NCBI GenBank assembly: GCA_024278415.1
Contig: JAJRTI010000516.1
Location: 1 to 29,762 of the forward strand
Reading direction: 5' to 3'
DNA: 29,762 bases
Source of the DNA: Planctomycetota bacterium
GTDB lineage: Bacteria; Planctomycetota; Brocadiia; JAJRTI01
The first letter of the stretch is position 1. Every line of letters begins with the position of its first letter. The notes under the pieces were generated by a model. It searched no databases, was not told where the DNA came from, and worked only from the letters and a program-made list of their open reading frames with translations. The translations under genes and the position numbers were made by a program. Shown in pieces: positions 4,637-13,267 of the stretch.

Positions 4637-4975
4637 ATGAGGCGGAACGAACGAGAACCGTTTGCTCATTGGCCTGTCGTCACGTTCCTCACGCTGGTCT
4701 GCTGGCCCATGCTTTGTGCTGCTCAGGCGAAGTCACGCGCTGTCAAGGACTGGCTCGCGCGTGTGGTGGCAATCAATAGGATACCGGGATTCGCCGTGGG
4801 CTTTCGAGGGGCGAGAATCCTGATATGCGGCCGACGCTGGGGCTGGTCGATCTGTGGTCTGGTAATTGGTAACATCTCAGCCAAGTGCAACAGGGATAGC
4901 GCCCCCGCCGACCCCGTGTCGGCGGAGCGACGGCTTATGCAACAAAGCGGGCTGCGCCCGCGAGCCTGGAGCTGA
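4637..4975 (+). pseudogene. Signal-peptide stub, possible truncated secreted-protein gene
   Basis: From the ATG at 4637, with GGAG 8 bases upstream, the frame begins like an export signal: basic MRRNERE, a hydrophobic stretch (VVTFLTLVCWPMLC) and an AQA-type cleavage site. After about residue 35 the composition becomes arbitrary, and the frame runs through a dispersed repeat (4870-4888) and two hairpins to a stop at 4973-4975, four bases before the next gene. It is therefore best read as the 5' remnant of a gene cut by repeat insertion or deletion, though a small secreted protein cannot be excluded. No family is recognised. Confidence 0.3.
4870..4961. repeat. Dispersed repeat copy and two hairpins
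   Basis: The 19-base stretch 4870-4888 is the reverse complement of 120-138 with a single mismatch, so a repeat family occurs at both ends of this region in opposite orientation. It is followed by a hairpin with 7-bp arms (CGCCGAC 4906-4912 / GTCGGCG 4918-4924) and a second with a TGC triloop (GCGGGC 4947-4952 / GCCCGC 4956-4961). These lie immediately upstream of the start at 4979 and could shape the 5' leader of that mRNA. Confidence 0.55.
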
Positions 4976-4978
4976 TCC

Positions 4979-5716
4979 ATGGACGGCAGGTCGAGCTTCG
5001 TTCGACGCCGCGAGTTCGCGGCGATGCGCTTGGGGGCCATGTGCTTGTGTCTGGTGGCCGTCACTGGGCGTGGCGCCGAAGACGCCCAGGTCGTGGCGAG
5101 CCGACGACTGGAGTATCTCCACCGATCCCGGGGCCGCGAGTACGGGCGGTCGATTCTGATTCGAGAAAAGCTGAGCGATGGCCGCACTCGATACCGCTGC
5201 GATCTCCGAGGCACGGCGTACGTGCTCACGGCGGATGACAAGGGGCGCCCGCTGACCTACAGCTACAAGAGCTATCGCGGGTACGCGGCCAGCTTTGTCT
5301 TTTCGGATGGCCGCATCGACTGCACCGGACTCCAGCCCAACCAAGAGCCGGAGCCGTACGTGCTCAAGCCCTCCGCGGGTGCGCTCCCCGAGTTCAACTC
5401 GCGGCCCGATCCCTATTTGACCTTGCACTTGCTGCTTCAGGCCTACGATCTGCAACGCCGCGGCAAACAGACGCTGCTCCTGTATGATCTCGACCGGAAG
5501 TGGCGCGGCATCTGTGAGTACCGCACGACGTTCGAGTTGGTCGATGAGGACGGGACACGGCTGCCTAACGGCAAGTTCAAGGCTCGCCACTTCGTGCAGA
5601 TCCAGCAGGAGACGCGCAACACGGGCTACCGCAAGTGGCGAGGCAGTCGGACCGACATCTGGGCCAGTGCCGATGGGACCCTCCTCCGCGTCTTCCGGCA
5701 CCGGGAGCCCTACTAG
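4979..5716 (+). CDS. Exported protein of unknown function, N-terminal part of a TAG-split gene
   Basis: 245 residues up to a TAG. The ATG has GGAG 7 bases upstream (4968-4971). An N-terminal export signal is visible: basic RRREF, then a hydrophobic MRLGAMCLCLVAV stretch, with likely cleavage near GRGAEDA; an internal ATG at 5024 is a less likely start. The mature part is beta-rich and recalls DUF3108/DUF1571-like periplasmic domains (for example a late DIWASADGTLLRVFRHREPY strand), but I do not assign a family firmly. The reading frame continues without a gap beyond the TAG at 5714-5716 into an S41 peptidase that has no export signal of its own. I infer that 4979-7081 was, or still is, one 700-residue secreted protein. 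Confidence 0.72.
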   Translation: MDGRSSFVRRREFAAMRLGAMCLCLVAVTGRGAEDAQVVASRRLEYLHRSRGREYGRSILIREKLSDGRTRYRCDLRGTAYVLTADDKGRPLTYSYKSYRGYAASFVFSDGRIDCTGLQPNQEPEPYVLKPSAGALPEFNSRPDPYLTLHLLLQAYDLQRRGKQTLLLYDLDRKWRGICEYRTTFELVDEDGTRLPNGKFKARHFVQIQQETRNTGYRKWRGSRTDIWASADGTLLRVFRHREPY

Positions 5717-7081
5717 TTGATCCTGCGCAACTACGACGCCCCCGACGCGCTTCTCTCTGCCTCTGAGACGGCGGTAGGCTTGACGCTCGACGCGCCTGTG
5801 CCGGCGGCGATCAAGACCCGGCTCGAGGCGATGCGCCAACCCCGGGGCCGGCCCCGCAGCCAACCCCTGACGGCCAAGACGCCAGCGCACTACGAAGAGG
5901 CGCTCAAGGCGTTCGTGGCGCAGGTGGACTCGACGTACCCCTTTTTCGATCTCAAAGGCATCCGCGCAGATTGGGACCGGTGCAAAGCGGATCTGCTGGC
6001 GCGCGTCAAGACGTGCCGTACGCCCGACACCTTCAGCACGCTGCTTTGGGAGGCCAAGTGCTGTTTGCGGGACGCGCATTTGGGCTTCACCGACTTGAAG
6101 GGCAAAATCGCGTTCCCCGAATACTACTACCCCGGAGTGAGCTTCTTGCCGGCCGCGAAGGGCCAGGTCGTCATCATGGGCGCCCCCAGCGACTATCAAC
6201 CCATGCTCTCCCCTGGCGTCGTGGTCACACACATCGATGGTCAGCCGGCCCGGGCGTTCCTCGAGGCCGAAGCGGCCCGCGCCTGGCGCGAGGGCGGGCC
6301 CTTCTCCAGTCCCCAACGAGCGCGCCTCTTCGCCTTCCGCATGCCGCTCAAGGGCAAACAGGGCGAGACGCATCAACTCACGATTGCGGCCCAGAAGGGC
6401 GTCCAGGTCGTCGCCGTGGCGAGCAAGTGGCCCGTTCGCGGCTGGCCCCATATGTACGCGATGCCAGCCGGGCTACAGCGCTATGGCCGGAGCTGCTGGT
6501 ACGCGCTTTTGGGAAGCGGGTACGGCTACATCTACTTGCGTTACATCGACCGCAGTTTCGTGCCCGGCATCGATGCGGCCATGAAGGCGTTTGGGCAGGC
6601 CAAGGGGGTGATCTTCGACCTGCGCGGCAATGGCGGAGGAGGCTATGGAACGGACTTCCACATGCGGTTCGACAAGAAAGCCGGCCCTCAGCCGGGTGCG
6701 CCCTTCTACGATCGAGAGATCGTCGTGCTCATTGACGCCGGCACGACCTCCGCCGGCGAAACGGTCGCGCGTGACTTGGCCCGGCTTGCAGGCGCGCACG
6801 TGATGGGCTCCCGAACCTCGGGGGCGTCCTCGGCCAAACGCGCGTGGACGCTGCCTTACGGCTTGGGCACGGTCATCTTCTCGACGCGAAGCCGCGGAGG
6901 GATCGGCGGGACGCCGATCGAATACAACGGGATCGCGCCGCAGGAAGAGGTCGAGATCGTGCCCGAAGAACTCCAAGCCGGCCTGAACTCGGGCATCCTG
7001 CGCGCGGAGGAGTACTTGGACCGCAAGCTGCGGCCGGCGAACGAGGGACCGAAGAGAAGGGCAGGGCAAGAGCAGGAGTAG
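5717..7081 (+). CDS. S41-family peptidase, C-terminal part of a TAG-split gene
   Basis: 454 residues in the same frame as the preceding 4979-5716 gene, starting at the codon right after its TAG. A TTG start with GGAG at 5704-5707 is possible, but no signal peptide follows, which is odd for a peptidase type that normally works outside the cytoplasm. An N-terminal helical region (YPFFDLKGI) leads to a PDZ-like stretch (SPGVVVTHIDGQPA) and the S41 core: YIYLRYID, VIFDLRGNGGG, and the nucleophile Ser345 in GTTSAGE. The Lys expected 25 residues later, as in CtpA proteases, is Ala370; the nearest Lys is 374 (SGASSAK). It may therefore belong to an S41 group with a different catalytic set. A tail rich in Lys, Arg and Glu ends the protein. 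Confidence 0.8.
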   Translation: MILRNYDAPDALLSASETAVGLTLDAPVPAAIKTRLEAMRQPRGRPRSQPLTAKTPAHYEEALKAFVAQVDSTYPFFDLKGIRADWDRCKADLLARVKTCRTPDTFSTLLWEAKCCLRDAHLGFTDLKGKIAFPEYYYPGVSFLPAAKGQVVIMGAPSDYQPMLSPGVVVTHIDGQPARAFLEAEAARAWREGGPFSSPQRARLFAFRMPLKGKQGETHQLTIAAQKGVQVVAVASKWPVRGWPHMYAMPAGLQRYGRSCWYALLGSGYGYIYLRYIDRSFVPGIDAAMKAFGQAKGVIFDLRGNGGGGYGTDFHMRFDKKAGPQPGAPFYDREIVVLIDAGTTSAGETVARDLARLAGAHVMGSRTSGASSAKRAWTLPYGLGTVIFSTRSRGGIGGTPIEYNGIAPQEEVEIVPEELQAGLNSGILRAEEYLDRKLRPANEGPKRRAGQEQE

Positions 7082-7616
7082 GCATCTGGTGCTGGACGTC
7101 CGTGCGTGTTCAGCGTGCGCATGCGAAGAAACGAGACGCGTAGCCGCATGCGCCAACATGCAGCCCAACCGACGAGTGGCTCAAGAACGCCCGCATTCTG
7201 GCGAATGCGGCTACCGCCCACGCGAAACGCGCACGGATGTGGGCGAATCAACGGAATGTTGACGGATGGCGCGAATGGGGCTATTCTGCCGCGTGGCGCA
7301 GCGCAAGTCCCTGAGCAAGCCGGGGGCGTTGTGTCCGAGTGGAGTCGTTGGCGAACGTAGCCCGCATTTCTCACGAGTTCAGGCGGGCGCACCTGCAAGG
7401 CGCACGGTGCGAAGGCGTGTTCTTACACGTCGAGTGCCGTGCAACGCAGCAGATGCGCCCGACTGGACTCGCCCGCAGGGCCAGCCCTCCGATCGACCGC
7501 GTCGGCAGACTGTCATCATGCCGGCGTGTTCAGAACGCCGCGAAACCCATCGTACGTTCGCTTCTGCTTACTTTACATCCCGGGCTGGTGAGAAATGCGG
7601 GATAGAGGAGGGACGC
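7082..7616. other. Long intergenic region with a palindromic element
   Basis: No gene is supported in this stretch of about 535 bases. An open frame that extends upstream from the next gene lacks a ribosome site and protein-like composition. The only clear structure is the family 2 palindromic element at 7140-7214. The remainder presumably carries the promoter of the large exported protein, but no strong -35/-10 pair was recognised. Confidence 0.5.
7140..7214. repeat. Palindromic intergenic element, family 2
   Basis: The left arm GTAGCCGCATGCGCCAACAT (7140-7159) and the right arm GCATTCTGGCGAATGCGGCTAC (7193-7214, given here in two parts: GCATTCTGGCG and AATGCGGCTAC) are imperfect inverted copies, about 75 bases in all. 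A related element starts at 11428. It sits between genes and has no coding content, like a REP or MITE-type sequence. Confidence 0.65.
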
Positions 7617-9305
7617 ATGATGGCACGGAGCGCTCGATCCCTGGTGCATCTTCTGATCGCGGCCGCGTTGCTGCACCCCTGCGGATCCACGGCTGGGCCT
7701 GCCAGCGACATCAAAGTGTGGCCCGTTTTCTACCGTGCGTCCGATCCCGTCACCCAAGAGACCCGCACGGAAGTTCTGTGGCCGATCTATGTGCGCCACC
7801 GCACGGACAAGTATGCCGCGAACCAGATTCTCAGCTTCCCGCAGCGCTACCCGAGCGAGTATCCGAGCCAGTTCTACCTCCTCTGGCCGCTCAGCGGCGT
7901 GCGCACCGGCCACGGGCATGATACATGGTTCTTCCCGTTCTTCTGGAGCGGCGCCAAGGCGGACGGCAAGCGGAGCCACTTCGCGCTCTTTCCCGCGTTC
8001 TACTACGGCCGGCGCGATGAAAAGCGCACGCTCAACATCGCGCTGCTCCAGCACAATAGTTGGAGCAAGACGCCGACCCGCGCGAGCCGCTTGCACGCGC
8101 TGTGGCCGATTCTGTGGGCGGATACGTCGAGTTCCGCGTCGAGCCAAAGTTCGTCCCAAGGCCTTCTGCCGCTGATCTGGCTTTCGCACCACAAGAGCGA
8201 TCGCTCCGGCCACCGGTCCGAGTCACGCTCTGGCGGCGTCCTCTTGCTCAATTGGTGGAGCCGCTACAAGTATGACGTCTCCACGCGCAAAAGTGCGAGG
8301 GCAAGTGATGGGTTGTTCCCCGTCTTCTACCGATCGAATTATGACGGCACCTCGGTCTCTGAACGAGAGACTTCTACCGACCATAGCGACGCGTTCTGGC
8401 TCTTTCCCTATTGGCAGTCACACGATGCCAGCAACATCACCAAGACCGGGGCCGCAACCAAGGCTAGCGCCAAGTCCAAGCACGTCTTCCTCCCGCTATG
8501 GTGGGCATGGAGCAGCGAGACGAACAAGAAGGCGCATGCCGGCCACTTGCTCTTTCCGTTCTGGTGGCGCTCATCGGAGAGCCGGGGTGATGAAATCGTG
8601 AAGTCCACAAGCTTCGTCGTTCCGCTTGGGGCGCATTTCTTCAAGAAGGACGAATACGAGACGCACAATCTGCTCGGCCCTATGTTCAATCGCACCGAGA
8701 ACAAGGCGAAGCAATACGTGCGCTACGACGCCTTCTTCCCCCTCTTCTCAGCGACCACGGGCAAGCGACGTTCCGGCGGCCACGTGTTCCCGATCGCCGG
8801 CTGGGGGAGTGAGAGCGGCCGCTATTCGAATCTCTGGTATCTGTTCCCGCTGGGGTGGCGTTGCGAGTCGCAAGAAGGCAAGCCGTATAGCGCGGGGGTT
8901 CCGAGCTTGTGGGCACTCCACATGATGGAGAGCAAGCCGTTTGCGAACGCCCCAGACTGCCCCGACGCCGGGCCGCGGCGCAACGTGGCCTTTTACCCCA
9001 TCGCCTGGTCGAGGCGACAGGCCGATACGCAAACCTCAGGCCTCACCCCCTTCTGGTGGAGCGAGACATGGCGCTCCGGCCGCGACGTGTCCACGGAAAC
9101 CTTGCTGCCGTTGCTCCTCGGCCGCCGCGCGACCGTCGCGCGCGACGGGAAGCAGACCTACGCGCGCCAAGACAGCCTCCTTTCCGTCGTGGCTTGGGGC
9201 AAAGGCGAACGCTTCACGCTTCGCCGCGTCTTTCCGCTCTTCTCGTATGGCGACTGCTACGGTCGTCGCCACGTGCGGGCGCTCTTGCCGCCGTTCTCCT
9301 ACTAG
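7617..9305 (+). CDS. Exported W-P-F/L repeat protein, N-terminal part of a TAG-split gene
   Basis: 562 residues up to a TAG. GAGGAGGGA (7605-7613) precedes two consecutive ATGs (7617 and 7620); the second has the better spacing. A signal peptide is clear (MMARSARSLVHLLIAAALL, cleavage near STAGPAS). The mature chain consists of about two dozen short units, each with an aromatic/hydrophobic-Pro-hydrophobic-aromatic core such as VWPVFY, LWPIYV, FFPFFWSG, LFPAFYYG, FLPLWWAW, LFPFWWRS, LFPLGW and VFPLFSYG, separated by polar turns rich in Ser, Lys and Arg. Such alternation suggests repeated beta hairpins, perhaps an envelope-associated sheet or barrel. No known domain is recognised. The same repeat pattern resumes in frame after the TAG at 9303-9305, so 7617-11420 is inferred to be one gene of about 1267 residues. 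Confidence 0.8.
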   Translation: MMARSARSLVHLLIAAALLHPCGSTAGPASDIKVWPVFYRASDPVTQETRTEVLWPIYVRHRTDKYAANQILSFPQRYPSEYPSQFYLLWPLSGVRTGHGHDTWFFPFFWSGAKADGKRSHFALFPAFYYGRRDEKRTLNIALLQHNSWSKTPTRASRLHALWPILWADTSSSASSQSSSQGLLPLIWLSHHKSDRSGHRSESRSGGVLLLNWWSRYKYDVSTRKSARASDGLFPVFYRSNYDGTSVSERETSTDHSDAFWLFPYWQSHDASNITKTGAATKASAKSKHVFLPLWWAWSSETNKKAHAGHLLFPFWWRSSESRGDEIVKSTSFVVPLGAHFFKKDEYETHNLLGPMFNRTENKAKQYVRYDAFFPLFSATTGKRRSGGHVFPIAGWGSESGRYSNLWYLFPLGWRCESQEGKPYSAGVPSLWALHMMESKPFANAPDCPDAGPRRNVAFYPIAWSRRQADTQTSGLTPFWWSETWRSGRDVSTETLLPLLLGRRATVARDGKQTYARQDSLLSVVAWGKGERFTLRRVFPLFSYGDCYGRRHVRALLPPFSY

Positions 9306-11420
9306 ACTTCCCGCGACCGGTATGAGCCAGAAGCTCGTCGCTCATCCAAGCTTTCCATCCCCTTTCGCTTCCTGCCGTGGTTCGGGTCCAAGACCCGGCA
9401 AGCGGGTCTGAAGTACTCGTCCCGAAAATCGTGGTTCTTCCCTTTCTACAAGCACACGGCCGAGCGCACGCCTGACAGCGACGTGAAGAAGCTGTCCATC
9501 CTCTGGCCCCTGTGGAATGCGGAATGGGAGAACGGCGAGAAGCGAGCGCGCACCTTTGGAGGTTTGACTAGCCGCTACGAGCGCGACGTCAACGGCTTCG
9601 TCGAGCAGCGCATCCTCTACCGCGTCTTCACGCGGCGCACCCGAAGCTGGCTGTCCGAGCACGAATTCATGCCTTTCTACTCGCAACAGAGCATCGAGGA
9701 CGGCGACAGCTATCGGAAGTTCCTAGGCGGGCTGCTGGGCGGCGAGACTCGCGGCGGACGCACCTATCTCCGCCTGCTCTACGCCCCCATCCCCATGGGC
9801 AAGGCGGACGCGCCCAACAAGCGCGCCCACGCCAAGCGGCAGGCCAGGCACGCGGCCCTCGCGCTCAACTACTTGCGCCACGGCCGGCACGACCGCGCCG
9901 CTATCGAGTTCAAGCTCGCCGGCGACGCGCGCAACGACGACCGTGGCTTCCAACTCGCGACCGGCGAGGCCTATCTGAAGGCTGGGCCCGAAGCTGTGAG
10001 CAAGGAGCTGCGCTCCACCATTCCATCGTCCCTCGAATCCCTGGTCGGCAAACGCGGCTACTCCGACACCACCGCGGTCCAGCAGAATCTGCGCAAGCTC
10101 GCGATCCAGCACTTCAGGCGAGCGATCGAGCTTGGCGCGGACGAAGCGGACACGCTGCGCAAGATCGCCCGCGCGCACGCCGACATGAAACAATACGAGC
10201 CGGCATTGCAAGAGCTTGCCAAATCCGACGAACTTCGCCCCAGCTTCGCCACGGCCATGGACCGGCTCGCCGTGCTCGCCGAGTTGCGAGGCGTCAGGCT
10301 CGTGGGCTTGTACGCGCCGGCGCGTCAGCCCCGGCCCCAAGGGAAACTTGCCGAGAGCGCGGGGCGCAAGTGGCGGAAGCTGCTGGCCGAACTCCGCAAG
10401 CGCTATCCCGAATCGCCAACGCTCGCGCTTTGCGAGGCGGAGACGGTCGATTGGTTGCAATACTGCGACGACATCGGGGATAGATACCGCTGCATGTCCG
10501 TGCGGAGCGCTCTGTCCGAATCAACCGAGCAAGCGCTCGCGCTGTACGAACGCGGTGCGCAAATGCGGCCAGGGCCGGACGAGAAGCTGTGGCTCGCCGG
10601 GCGCCCAGCCCCCCGCGTGCTCAATAGTTGGCCAGCGCCCGAACATGTCTGGCGAGAGCGGAAGAGAACAGTTCGCCCTTCGCCGATCTGCGCGGCCCGC
10701 GGCATCATCATCCTAAGCCGCCAGGCTTCGCTTCTGATGGACCAGGAGAAGCTCGGCGAAGCCGAGGCCCGGCTCGCGCGCATCCAGAAACTCATGGGCC
10801 GCGTCTGCCAAAACTGCGATGAAACCGACTATGCGGACGACGTGTCATACGGGCTCTGGCACGCGATGGACAGCCTCGAACGATTGTACGTGAAAAAGCG
10901 GAACTGCCCTCAGACGTACCTCGCGACCGCGGAGGAATGGGTCAAGCCCCTCTGCCCGCGGCACAAGAAGATTCTTGAGCGGCTCGCGGCGGGCGTTCGC
11001 ATCGAACTGCAATACCTCAAGCAATGGCGCATCAGCCCGGTGGCCGGCCGCGACTTCGCGGCCAAGATCTACCGCGGCAAGTTCTTCGATCGCTACGTGG
11101 ACCTCGACGCGATCCTTGGCCATCCCGACCACTGCAAGGTCGCGGCCGAGTGCGTGCTCGTCTCGCCCGACGAGAGAGAGGCCGTTTTGCGGCTGGGCTT
11201 CGATGAAAAGCTGAGCGTGGAGCTGAACGGCGAAACTGTATTCCGCAAGCGATCTCGCCGCGTCGCGGTGCGCGACGAGTTCACGGTCCCCATCCGACTG
11301 CGCAAGGGGGAAAACCGCTTGAAGCTGATCGTCACCGACAAGACGCTCGGCTACGGCTTCTTTGCCCGGCTCTCCGACGAGCGCGGGGACTTCATGGATG
11401 ATGTCACGTACAAGGAGTGA
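9306..11420 (+). CDS. Repeat/TPR/beta-sandwich protein, C-terminal part of a TAG-split gene
   Basis: 704 codons following the TAG at 9303-9305 in the same frame. The W-P-F repeat carries on at once (IPFRFLPWFG, SWFFPFYKH, SILWPLWNAEW, EFMPFYSQ). The first usual start codon that gene finders would take is GTG 9483, which has no ribosome site and would cut through a repeat unit, so independent initiation looks unlikely. After the repeats comes a helical TPR-like region (AIQHFRRAIELGADEADTLR and QYEPALQELAKSDELRPS, roughly nt 10090-10280), a Cys-containing helical stretch (CQNCDETD), and a C-terminal jelly-roll-like domain (VELNGETVFRKR, PIRLRKGENRLKLIVTDKT, GYGFFARLSD) like the sugar-binding modules common in secreted proteins of PVC-type bacteria. 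Its function is unknown. Confidence 0.78.
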   Translation, partial: TSRDRYEPEARRSSKLSIPFRFLPWFGSKTRQAGLKYSSRKSWFFPFYKHTAERTPDSDVKKLSILWPLWNAEWENGEKRARTFGGLTSRYERDVNGFVEQRILYRVFTRRTRSWLSEHEFMPFYSQQSIEDGDSYRKFLGGLLGGETRGGRTYLRLLYAPIPMGKADAPNKRAHAKRQARHAALALNYLRHGRHDRAAIEFKLAGDARNDDRGFQLATGEAYLKAGPEAVSKELRSTIPSSLESLVGKRGYSDTTAVQQNLRKLAIQHFRRAIELGADEADTLRKIARAHADMKQYEPALQELAKSDELRPSFATAMDRLAVLAELRGVRLVGLYAPARQPRPQGKLAESAGRKWRKLLAELRKRYPESPTLALCEAETVDWLQYCDDIGDRYRCMSVRSALSESTEQALALYERGAQMRPGPDEKLWLAGRPAPRVLNSWPAPEHVWRERKRTVRPSPICAARGIIILSRQASLLMDQEKLGEAEARLARIQKLMGRVCQNCDETDYADDVSYGLWHAMDSLERLYVKKRNCPQTYLATAEEWVKPLCPRHKKILERLAAGVRIELQYLKQWRISPVAGRDFAAKIYRGKFFDRYVDLDAILGHPDHCKVAAECVLVSPDEREAVLRLGFDEKLSVELNGETVFRKRSRRVAVRDEFTVPIRLRKGENRLKLIVTDKTLGYGFFARLSDERGDFMDDVTYKE

Positions 11421-11427
11421 GAGGGCG

Positions 11428-11521
11428 GTAGCTGCATGCGCCAGCATGCGGGGCTCTTGCGAACTTGAAGCTATCTGTCGTCCGCCCCGCTGTTCGCCGT
11501 ACGGCGGACGGCTGCGGCTAC
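11428..11521. repeat. Palindromic intergenic element, family 2 relative
   Basis: GTAGCTGCATGCGCCAGCAT at 11428-11447 matches the left arm of the 7140 element with few changes. A counterpart ending GCTGCGGCTAC (11511-11521) closes the unit. The inner part adds a palindrome, CGCCGTACGGCG, around 11496-11507. Its right end contains the TAG stop codon of the minus-strand iron-sulfur gene, so the element may define the shared 3' end of the two convergent transcripts. Confidence 0.55.
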
Positions 11522-12765
11522 AGGCCGCTCTGGATTATTCCCCCGGCCGCGATCTCAAACGTGTGCTTGACCTTGGCGCTCACTCCCGCGGCTTCGAGCC
11601 GGTCGGCCAGTTGCAGCATGCACCCGGGGCAGGTGGTCGCCACGACGTCGGCGCCCGTCTCCCTAATCATGTCCACCTTGTGCTGGGCGATCTTGCAGGC
11701 GTAGTCGTAGTGGAACAGGCTGAACGCACCCCCCATGCCGCAGCAGCGGTCCGGCTCGGCCATCTCGACGAGGTCGGCCGCGGACTGGATGAGTTGGCGC
11801 GGGGGCTCCGTGACGCCTTGGCCGAAGTTCAGATGGCAGGGATCGTGATACGTCACCTTCGGCCGCGTCGCCCCATCCACTGCCGCGAGGCCCAGCTTCT
11901 CGATAGCGCCCTCTTTGGCCAGGAACTCGGTCGCGTCGAACACGCGCGCCGAGAACGCCTTCCCCGCCTCGCCGAGCAACTGCTCGTAGTCGGCCTTCAG
12001 CGTGCGGCCGCAGGACGCGCAGCCGGTGACGATGGTCTCGCAGCCGGCAAACGCCGCGACGTTGATCTTGGCCAAGCGCTTGGCCGCGGCCACCGCGCCG
12101 AAGCCGATGACCGGCGTGCCGCAGCAGACCTGCCCCTGGGGCACAACCACGTCGTACCCCGCGCGGTCAAACACGTCGATCAGCGCGGTCGCGATGTGGG
12201 CGTAGCCGTAGTTGGTGAGGCAGCCGAGGAAGAGGCCGACCTGCGGCCGGCCGCCCTTGGGCTGGTGGCCGCGCAGTTGCTTGAGCGCGCTTCGCCTCGC
12301 GAGCGCGGGGATCGATTGCCGGCCGAGAAACGCGAGGGGCAGGTGGCGCAGCAGGCCCTCGTGCTTGAGGGGCAGCACGTGCTGCGATAGCGCGCCCAGC
12401 CGGACCATCGCGTCGAACAGCCAACGCCGGGGCAGCACGACGCTGAAGATGAATCGCGCAAGCCACGGCACCCCGCGCCGGTTCGCGATCTCGTTGCGCA
12501 TGCCCTGGAGGATCTTCTCGTACGCGACTCCGCTGGGGCACACGCTCGTGCAGCGCAGACATTTGAGGCACGTCCACATGTACGCCTTGACCTTGTCGGT
12601 CAGGTCGAGGCGCCCGTCGATGACGGCCTCCGCGAGCGTGATGCGCCCCCGTGCGACCGCGCTCTCATCGCCCGTCTCGAGGAAGATGGGGCACACGCTA
12701 CGGCACTTGCCGCACTTGGCGCAGCGCGCGATCTCAGAGCGGATGTCGTCGGTGGCGGCGCTCAA
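11518..12765 (-). CDS. GlcF-like (Fe-S)-binding oxidoreductase subunit with two CCG domains
   Basis: 415 residues, cytoplasmic. Two [4Fe-4S] ferredoxin motifs are complete: CAKCGKCRSVCP (Cys15, 18, 21, 25) and CLKCLRCTSVCP (Cys66, 69, 72, 76). Two CCG domains follow, with the hallmark pairs CCGTPV and CCGMGG and their partner cysteines (LGCLTNYG, TGCASCG, HDPCH, TCPGCMLQL). This is the build of glycolate oxidase GlcF and lactate-utilisation or heterodisulfide-reductase-like electron-transfer subunits, which pass electrons from a flavin dehydrogenase; no flavin subunit gene is in the window. The start is a TTG with GGAGGG upstream, and it overlaps by four bases (TTGA) the ancestral stop of the toxin gene before it, suggesting translational coupling. 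The stop lies in a repeat element. Confidence 0.88.
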   Translation of the reverse strand: MSAATDDIRSEIARCAKCGKCRSVCPIFLETGDESAVARGRITLAEAVIDGRLDLTDKVKAYMWTCLKCLRCTSVCPSGVAYEKILQGMRNEIANRRGVPWLARFIFSVVLPRRWLFDAMVRLGALSQHVLPLKHEGLLRHLPLAFLGRQSIPALARRSALKQLRGHQPKGGRPQVGLFLGCLTNYGYAHIATALIDVFDRAGYDVVVPQGQVCCGTPVIGFGAVAAAKRLAKINVAAFAGCETIVTGCASCGRTLKADYEQLLGEAGKAFSARVFDATEFLAKEGAIEKLGLAAVDGATRPKVTYHDPCHLNFGQGVTEPPRQLIQSAADLVEMAEPDRCCGMGGAFSLFHYDYACKIAQHKVDMIRETGADVVATTCPGCMLQLADRLEAAGVSAKVKHTFEIAAGGIIQSGL

Positions 12766-12883
12766 GTTCCCTCCGGGCGATCCTCTGCGTTGTCGGTTGC
12801 GGCGAGAACTGCTTGCACAACGGCGTCACTGAACCAGAACCCCGCTTGGCGAAGGTCGTCTATGGCCTCGGCCAGGGGTTTCT
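12762..12883 (-). other. Out-of-frame C-terminal tail of the DUF3368 toxin
   Basis: This minus-strand frame reads KPLAEAIDDLRQAGFWFSDA and onward to a TGA at 12764-12762. That is the normal C-terminal end of DUF3368 proteins but lies one base out of register with the body of the gene. The two frames meet near AAACCCC (complement of 12875-12881). The terminal TGA overlaps the TTG start of the next gene, as expected in an intact operon. Confidence 0.75.
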
Positions 12884-13267
12884 GAGCAGCCCACGCTTGT
12901 AAGCCAGCTTTAGGATGCCGAGTGTGCCCACGAGAGGGAGGCCGAGTTGTCGGGCGCCAGCTCGCGCCTCGCGGTCGTCGAGGAGCATGAGGTCCGCACC
13001 CAGTTCGTGTCCGAGTGCAAGCGCGTCGGCTTCTCCGAGGCTGAGCGTGCTCTTGGGCAGAGCAGGCGCCGGCGCCTTGGTCACACGGGTTTCGATCCAT
13101 GACGCCTCTGCAACTTCCGATGCGCCCGGGCGCCCCTCGCCGCGGCGGACGACCTCATGGCAAACAGATTCGGGTATGAGTACGCGGCCAAACAGTCTGC
13201 TCAGGAGATGCATCTGCCCGGTGCTGCTGAGCGCGATCAGCACGCTGGCATTGCTGACAACCTTCAC
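12860..13267 (-). CDS. DUF3368 PIN-like toxin, frameshifted near its C-terminus
   Basis: 135 residues as read. The chain starts VKVVSNASVLIALSSTGQ with the PIN-type first Asp replaced by Asn, as usual in DUF3368, then SLGEADALALGHELGADLML carries the central acidic Glu-Ala-Asp, followed by LLDDREAR, the second acidic pair. Such proteins are predicted metal-dependent RNases paired with UPF0175 antitoxins. The GTG start overlaps the antitoxin TGA (GTGA). The frame ends early at TAG 12862-12860, whereas the usual family C-terminus continues in another register to 12762. A single missing base near 12880, or a -1 ribosomal shift, would give about 167 residues. It could be a decayed toxin, a sequencing slip, or programmed frameshifting. 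Confidence 0.75.
   Translation of the reverse strand: MKVVSNASVLIALSSTGQMHLLSRLFGRVLIPESVCHEVVRRGEGRPGASEVAEASWIETRVTKAPAPALPKSTLSLGEADALALGHELGADLMLLDDREARAGARQLGLPLVGTLGILKLAYKRGLLRNPWPRP

Follow-up and report, generated by a model that had tools for sequence, protein, structure and literature searches.

We found that a gene for a long repeat protein is interrupted by an in-frame TAG codon at 9303-9305 in a 29,762-nucleotide stretch of DNA from a Planctomycetota bacterium (contig JAJRTI010000516.1 of assembly GCA_024278415.1, positions 1 to 29,762), referred to here as the window. The reading we favour, at a probability of about 55%, is that an accessory gene, probably of the cell envelope, has recently acquired a genuine nonsense mutation. 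Such a gene would specify a single exported repeat protein of ~1,267 residues, whose architecture is perhaps that of an outer-membrane-type beta protein to which a TPR region and a small C-terminal domain are added; the mutation would have struck codon 563. Translation would most likely halt at the TAG after 562 residues, so that the last repeat units are lost together with the TPR and C-terminal parts, and the gene would probably be inactive in the sampled strain. Three points in this reading are inferred: a genuine base in place of a consensus error, efficient termination, and a fragment that has no function.

The gene occupies a single reading frame on the forward strand, from ATG 7617 to TGA 11418-11420. 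The TAG at 9303-9305 is its sole internal stop, and all other 1,266 codons across 7617-11417 are sense codons. A strong Shine-Dalgarno sequence (GAGGAGG, 7605-7611, forward strand) lies 5' of the ATG. The first part (7617-9302, 562 codons) opens, by eye, with a signal-peptide-like start and continues with W-P-F/L repeat units; the remainder (9306-11420, 704 codons) holds the last repeat units, a TPR-like stretch, the C-terminal domain and the TGA. By eye, aromatic-proline repeat units persist for ~130 residues past the TAG before giving way to the TPR-like stretch. A preliminary description, made from the sequence alone, had placed this TAG in frame within a continuous repeat protein. This was borne out, since the stop is in frame with both the ATG and the terminal TGA, and the residues quoted from either side of it (LLPPFSY, TSRDRYEPEARRSSK, IPFRFLPWFG and WFFPFYKH) are all present. 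Third-position GC is 0.74-0.90 in windows over the entire frame, which points to one coding frame across the TAG. Domain models matched little of the protein. The 7617-9302 part had no Pfam match up to E 0.1, and no Pfam or NCBIfam model matched the repeat part in the scans made. Pfam matches in the TPR-like stretch were weak and all below cut-off, and profile positions 823-880 match solved TPR proteins. The C-terminal domain itself (~11080-11390, residues ~1155-1258) was given no name by Pfam.

Comparison with relatives revealed that the same single proteins align with both sides of the TAG, gap-free at the site. Protein matches to the 704 codons past it have E = 2.0e-195, 1.2e-172 and 1.0e-168, so the continuation is well beyond chance. 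A protein search with the downstream part as query returned 8 proteins, including the window's own, among 7,997 candidates scored. Five of the other seven (P0002, P0003, P0004, P0006 and P0007) span the site and were aligned; P0005, which starts past the site, and P0008, a weak TPR match, were left out. When 84,980 species genomes were scanned by pattern, 76 stretches matched one, and 5 of these encoded a relative. These five full-length loci (L001-L005) are each open from stop to stop over 1,244-1,358 codons, including the end stop, with internal stops in 0/5. In all ten aligned relatives the column of the TAG holds a sense residue (E, D, T, H, K, S, D, E, S, E), and a stop occurs there in 0/10. 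The column is variable and mostly polar. The claim that the protein signature crosses the stop codon is thus supported by every aligned relative that spans the site.

The long relatives sit in Lentisphaerae, Verrucomicrobia, PVC-group and Desulfobacteraceae assemblies, and the patterns matched no DNA in viral contigs. For the window's TsaD the comparison gave a relative at 78%, and the first match to carry an organism name, at 61%, is probably from Planctomycetota. Among the TsaD matches listed for 387 genomes of the L005 phylum none exceeded 56%, and three of four relatives' genomes had a TsaD match, at 53% or less. Among 194 genomes of the L005 phylum, 31 had a match, with no internal stop among the matches listed; three of the 31 (including L005's own) match along the length and 21 only in the C-terminal stretch. 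The C-terminal domain recurs without repeats (loci L013-L019) in these 21 of the 31 matching genomes. The preliminary description had proposed a homologue alignment that could turn up relatives ending naturally at FSY, with the downstream part as an independent gene. None appeared among the proteins found with the downstream query, the five loci L001-L005 and the three genomes that match along the length, the large protein database having been queried with the downstream part and not with the upstream part alone. No clearly free-standing downstream relative came out of that query either: the shorter matches P0002 and P0005 come from contigs of 3,017 and 2,385 bases and could be incomplete.

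Start signals after the TAG were also inspected. GTG 9483, which had been described as a restart lacking a ribosome site, has indeed no Shine-Dalgarno sequence. Further in-frame starts up to 9905 are TTG 9564, ATG 9669, ATG 9795 and TTG 9873, among which only TTG 9564 carries GGAGG, one base from the codon and too near to serve. A usable ribosome site is absent at all five starts in the ~600 bases 3' of the TAG.

Two more lesions lie within ~7 kb and support a nonsense mutation. One is a further in-frame TAG (5714-5716, forward strand), which probably interrupts, judging from its protein relatives, a gene for a DUF3108-S41 peptidase fusion. The first part of this second interrupted gene (4979-5713, forward strand) had no Pfam match of its own and is DUF3108-like in that fusion proteins match it, over their DUF3108 part, with 26-32% identity. 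We compared 129 proteins with it, and it was matched by 8, all longer and with this part preceding an S41 peptidase. Pfam run on five of these eight fusions gave Peptidase_S41 and DUF3108, the latter above cut-off in one of the five. At the position of the TAG the eight fused relatives have glutamate (8/8) and no stop (0/8). The S41 peptidase part (5717-7081, forward strand) is in frame with 4979-5713 and has, by eye, no signal peptide of its own. Speaking against a fusion, the S41 part is nearer free-standing S41 proteins (up to 61%) than the fusions (47-51%). TTG 5717 is the very next codon after the TAG and may be served by a GGGAG nine bases 5' of it. Because of these two points, separate translation of the S41 part is possible.

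The other lesion is in a PIN/DUF3368-type gene on the reverse strand (12762-13264), for which the name PIN is tentative and draws in part on a DUF3368 match. Its first frame had no Pfam match. Its DUF3368 end lies in a different frame (PF11848, E = 1e-4, below cut-off, positions 21-43 of 46), so the frame appears to change near 12875-12895. The adjoining UPF0175 partner is intact. The second TAG next door and the frame change in a third gene together point to lesions.

Several observations weigh against a nonsense mutation at 9303. No further stop or frame break is present among the 1,965 sense codons that the two interrupted genes have between them. Were both genes free of selection, a further break would be expected at the 95% level within ~0.5% divergence if one event in ten is an indel, or within 1.3-1.4% without indels; any such freedom from selection has thus lasted for less than roughly 0.5-1.4% divergence. 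In a tree of seven full-length sequences, the window branch measures 0.473 before the TAG and 0.725 after it, a downstream/upstream ratio of 1.53. The corresponding branches of the intact sister L001 are 0.403 and 0.612 (ratio 1.52), and the ratio is 1.67 for L004 and 1.22 for the whole tree. The window's ratio is above that of the whole tree but equal to that of L001 and below that of L004, with no decay visible. A cruder measure, the count of otherwise invariant columns, points slightly the other way, in favour of the mutation: the window breaks 3/110 upstream versus 18/169 downstream of the TAG (Fisher p = 0.018), one of them a tryptophan two codons past it that all ten relatives share, but intact L003 also breaks many downstream (17/168 versus 5/112 upstream). 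Finally, both internal TAGs follow a TAC codon within the octamer CCTACTAG (the second at 9298-9305), which occurs in the window only twice, TACTAG occurring three times. Since 22 of the 687 possible single-step nonsense changes in the two interrupted frames follow a TAC codon, the coincidence amounts to about one in thirty, a mild one and spotted only afterwards. Long neutral decay was rejected because there is no second stop or frame break and the rate pattern is like that of an intact sister. The absence of a speed-up beyond that of L001 points to a lesion that is recent, an allele or a consensus error.

An error of sequencing or assembly, with a sense codon and an intact gene in the living organism, is the alternative that we consider possible though clearly less probable than a real mutation. 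It is consistent with the otherwise open frame and with a downstream acceleration no greater than that of the intact sister. An imperfect consensus would also fit the finding of three lesions, including a frame change, within 29.8 kb. The cluster of the window's protein has a single member, on one contig, and no second copy of the sequence was found. Two substitution-type stops would, however, imply many silent substitution errors. All three lesions fall in accessory-type genes and none in YchF, TsaD, LarB, NnrD, PilT or the E2 gene, though so few events make this a weak argument. Also altered in the window is the tryptophan two codons past TAG 9303, kept in 10/10 relatives. We regard as highly improbable a pair of genes, with an upstream protein already complete at the TAG and a downstream one that has a start of its own. 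Its better case is at 5714, where TTG 5717 comes directly after the TAG with GGGAG nine bases 5' and the upstream part is matched by only 8 of 119 other S41 relatives listed. Even there, GGGAG encodes residues kept in the fused relatives, and the S41 part appears to lack a signal peptide. At 9303 the repeat array bridges the gap, and a split gene was rejected because no start signal was found up to 9905 and no split relative among the downstream-query proteins and the five loci.

Readthrough of the TAG is a further possibility, for which we found no support. In its context-dependent form, TAG would be decoded at useful efficiency after TAC and would terminate elsewhere. Two neighbouring long frames with TAG in the identical octamer, both continuing with conserved protein, argue for it, as does the downstream/upstream rate equal to that of the intact sister lineage. 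Natural examples of bacterial stop codons whose meaning depends on context are rare, and this would be one if peptides showed the readthrough. We nevertheless consider it unlikely. TAG is the commonest terminator in the window: of the 21 frames in a hand-made list, the internal TAGs terminate two and the frame change a third, and the 18 remaining ends are TAG (8), TGA (7) and TAA (3). Genes ending in TAG stop where their families stop. YchF ends at model position 368/368, its last residue, with a score just under the model cut-off, while NnrD reaches 275/277 with 24 residues to spare, PilT 343/343 with 18 and the STAS protein 106/106 with 5. Genome-wide recoding of TAG was rejected on these grounds, to the extent that a single contig allows global reassignment to be dismissed. 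Stops are absent from the aligned relatives at both sites, and the frame change in the third gene is left unexplained. The 100 bases 3' of each TAG fold no better than shuffled RNA (z -0.63 and 0.39), although known readthrough does not always need RNA structure. At Rfam gathering scores the only RNA element in the window is a tRNA, tRNA-Phe. According to the Codetta paper, the bacterial code changes then known all reassign UGA (PMC8629427). Less likely again, and in our view quite doubtful, is regular decoding of UAG as an amino acid after the UAC tyrosine codon with termination at other UAG codons, in an uncultured and perhaps planctomycete-like lineage, by which two adjacent envelope genes would yield long proteins through dual-meaning stops. 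The whole looks like an ordinary recent mutation or an assembly fault and not a new reading of the code.

Other features of the window were noted in passing. A gene for a heavy-metal P-type ATPase carries tandem-duplicated YHS (97% identical DNA) and HMBD (93%) domains at 1819-2129 and 2191-2406, and these duplications are apparently recent. A 25-base inverted repeat, 92% complementary, has its arms at 115-139 and 4869-4893, 4.7 kb from each other and both where no gene was recognised. Two intergenic stretches, short and GC-rich (GTAGCnGCATGCGCCAnCATGC), at 7137-7165 and 11427-11450 resemble each other by eye. They are perhaps a small dispersed repeat and were not listed as a family in the repeat search.

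Set against known systems, the feature corresponds, as far as alignment can tell, to a nonsense-interrupted gene, whether pseudogene or null allele, defined by a premature in-frame stop relative to intact orthologues. Pyrrolysine is encoded at UAG, and the pyrrolysine system likewise has UAG inside a frame; the gene described here, however, is no known pyrrolysine protein, and its relatives have ordinary residues at the site. Stop reassignments of the kind screened by Codetta share the in-frame stop within aligned protein columns (PMC8629427), but TAG here also terminates more genes than either other stop codon, and no meaning can be inferred from as few as two sites. Two in-frame TAGs on one contig proved a false lead, and do not show a new code because TAG ends the largest share of genes and relatives carry sense residues at both sites. 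The neighbouring gene, when 4979-7078 is read across the first TAG, has the same order of parts as the DUF3108-S41 fusions P0059, P0062, P0081, P0099, P0104, P0105, P0111 and P0121; unlike it, these are uninterrupted, and identity to them is lower upstream than in the S41 part. In-frame stops in conserved bacterial genes are widespread and mostly short-lived on the scale of polymorphism, and are assumed to be mostly without functional recoding, according to Belinky et al. 2021 (PMC7918605). Those cases were required to have stops in orthologues of at least two species, whereas here the stop is in one record only. They otherwise resemble the repeat-protein gene in kind: a single in-frame stop with conserved protein on either side, no further decay and a presumably short life.

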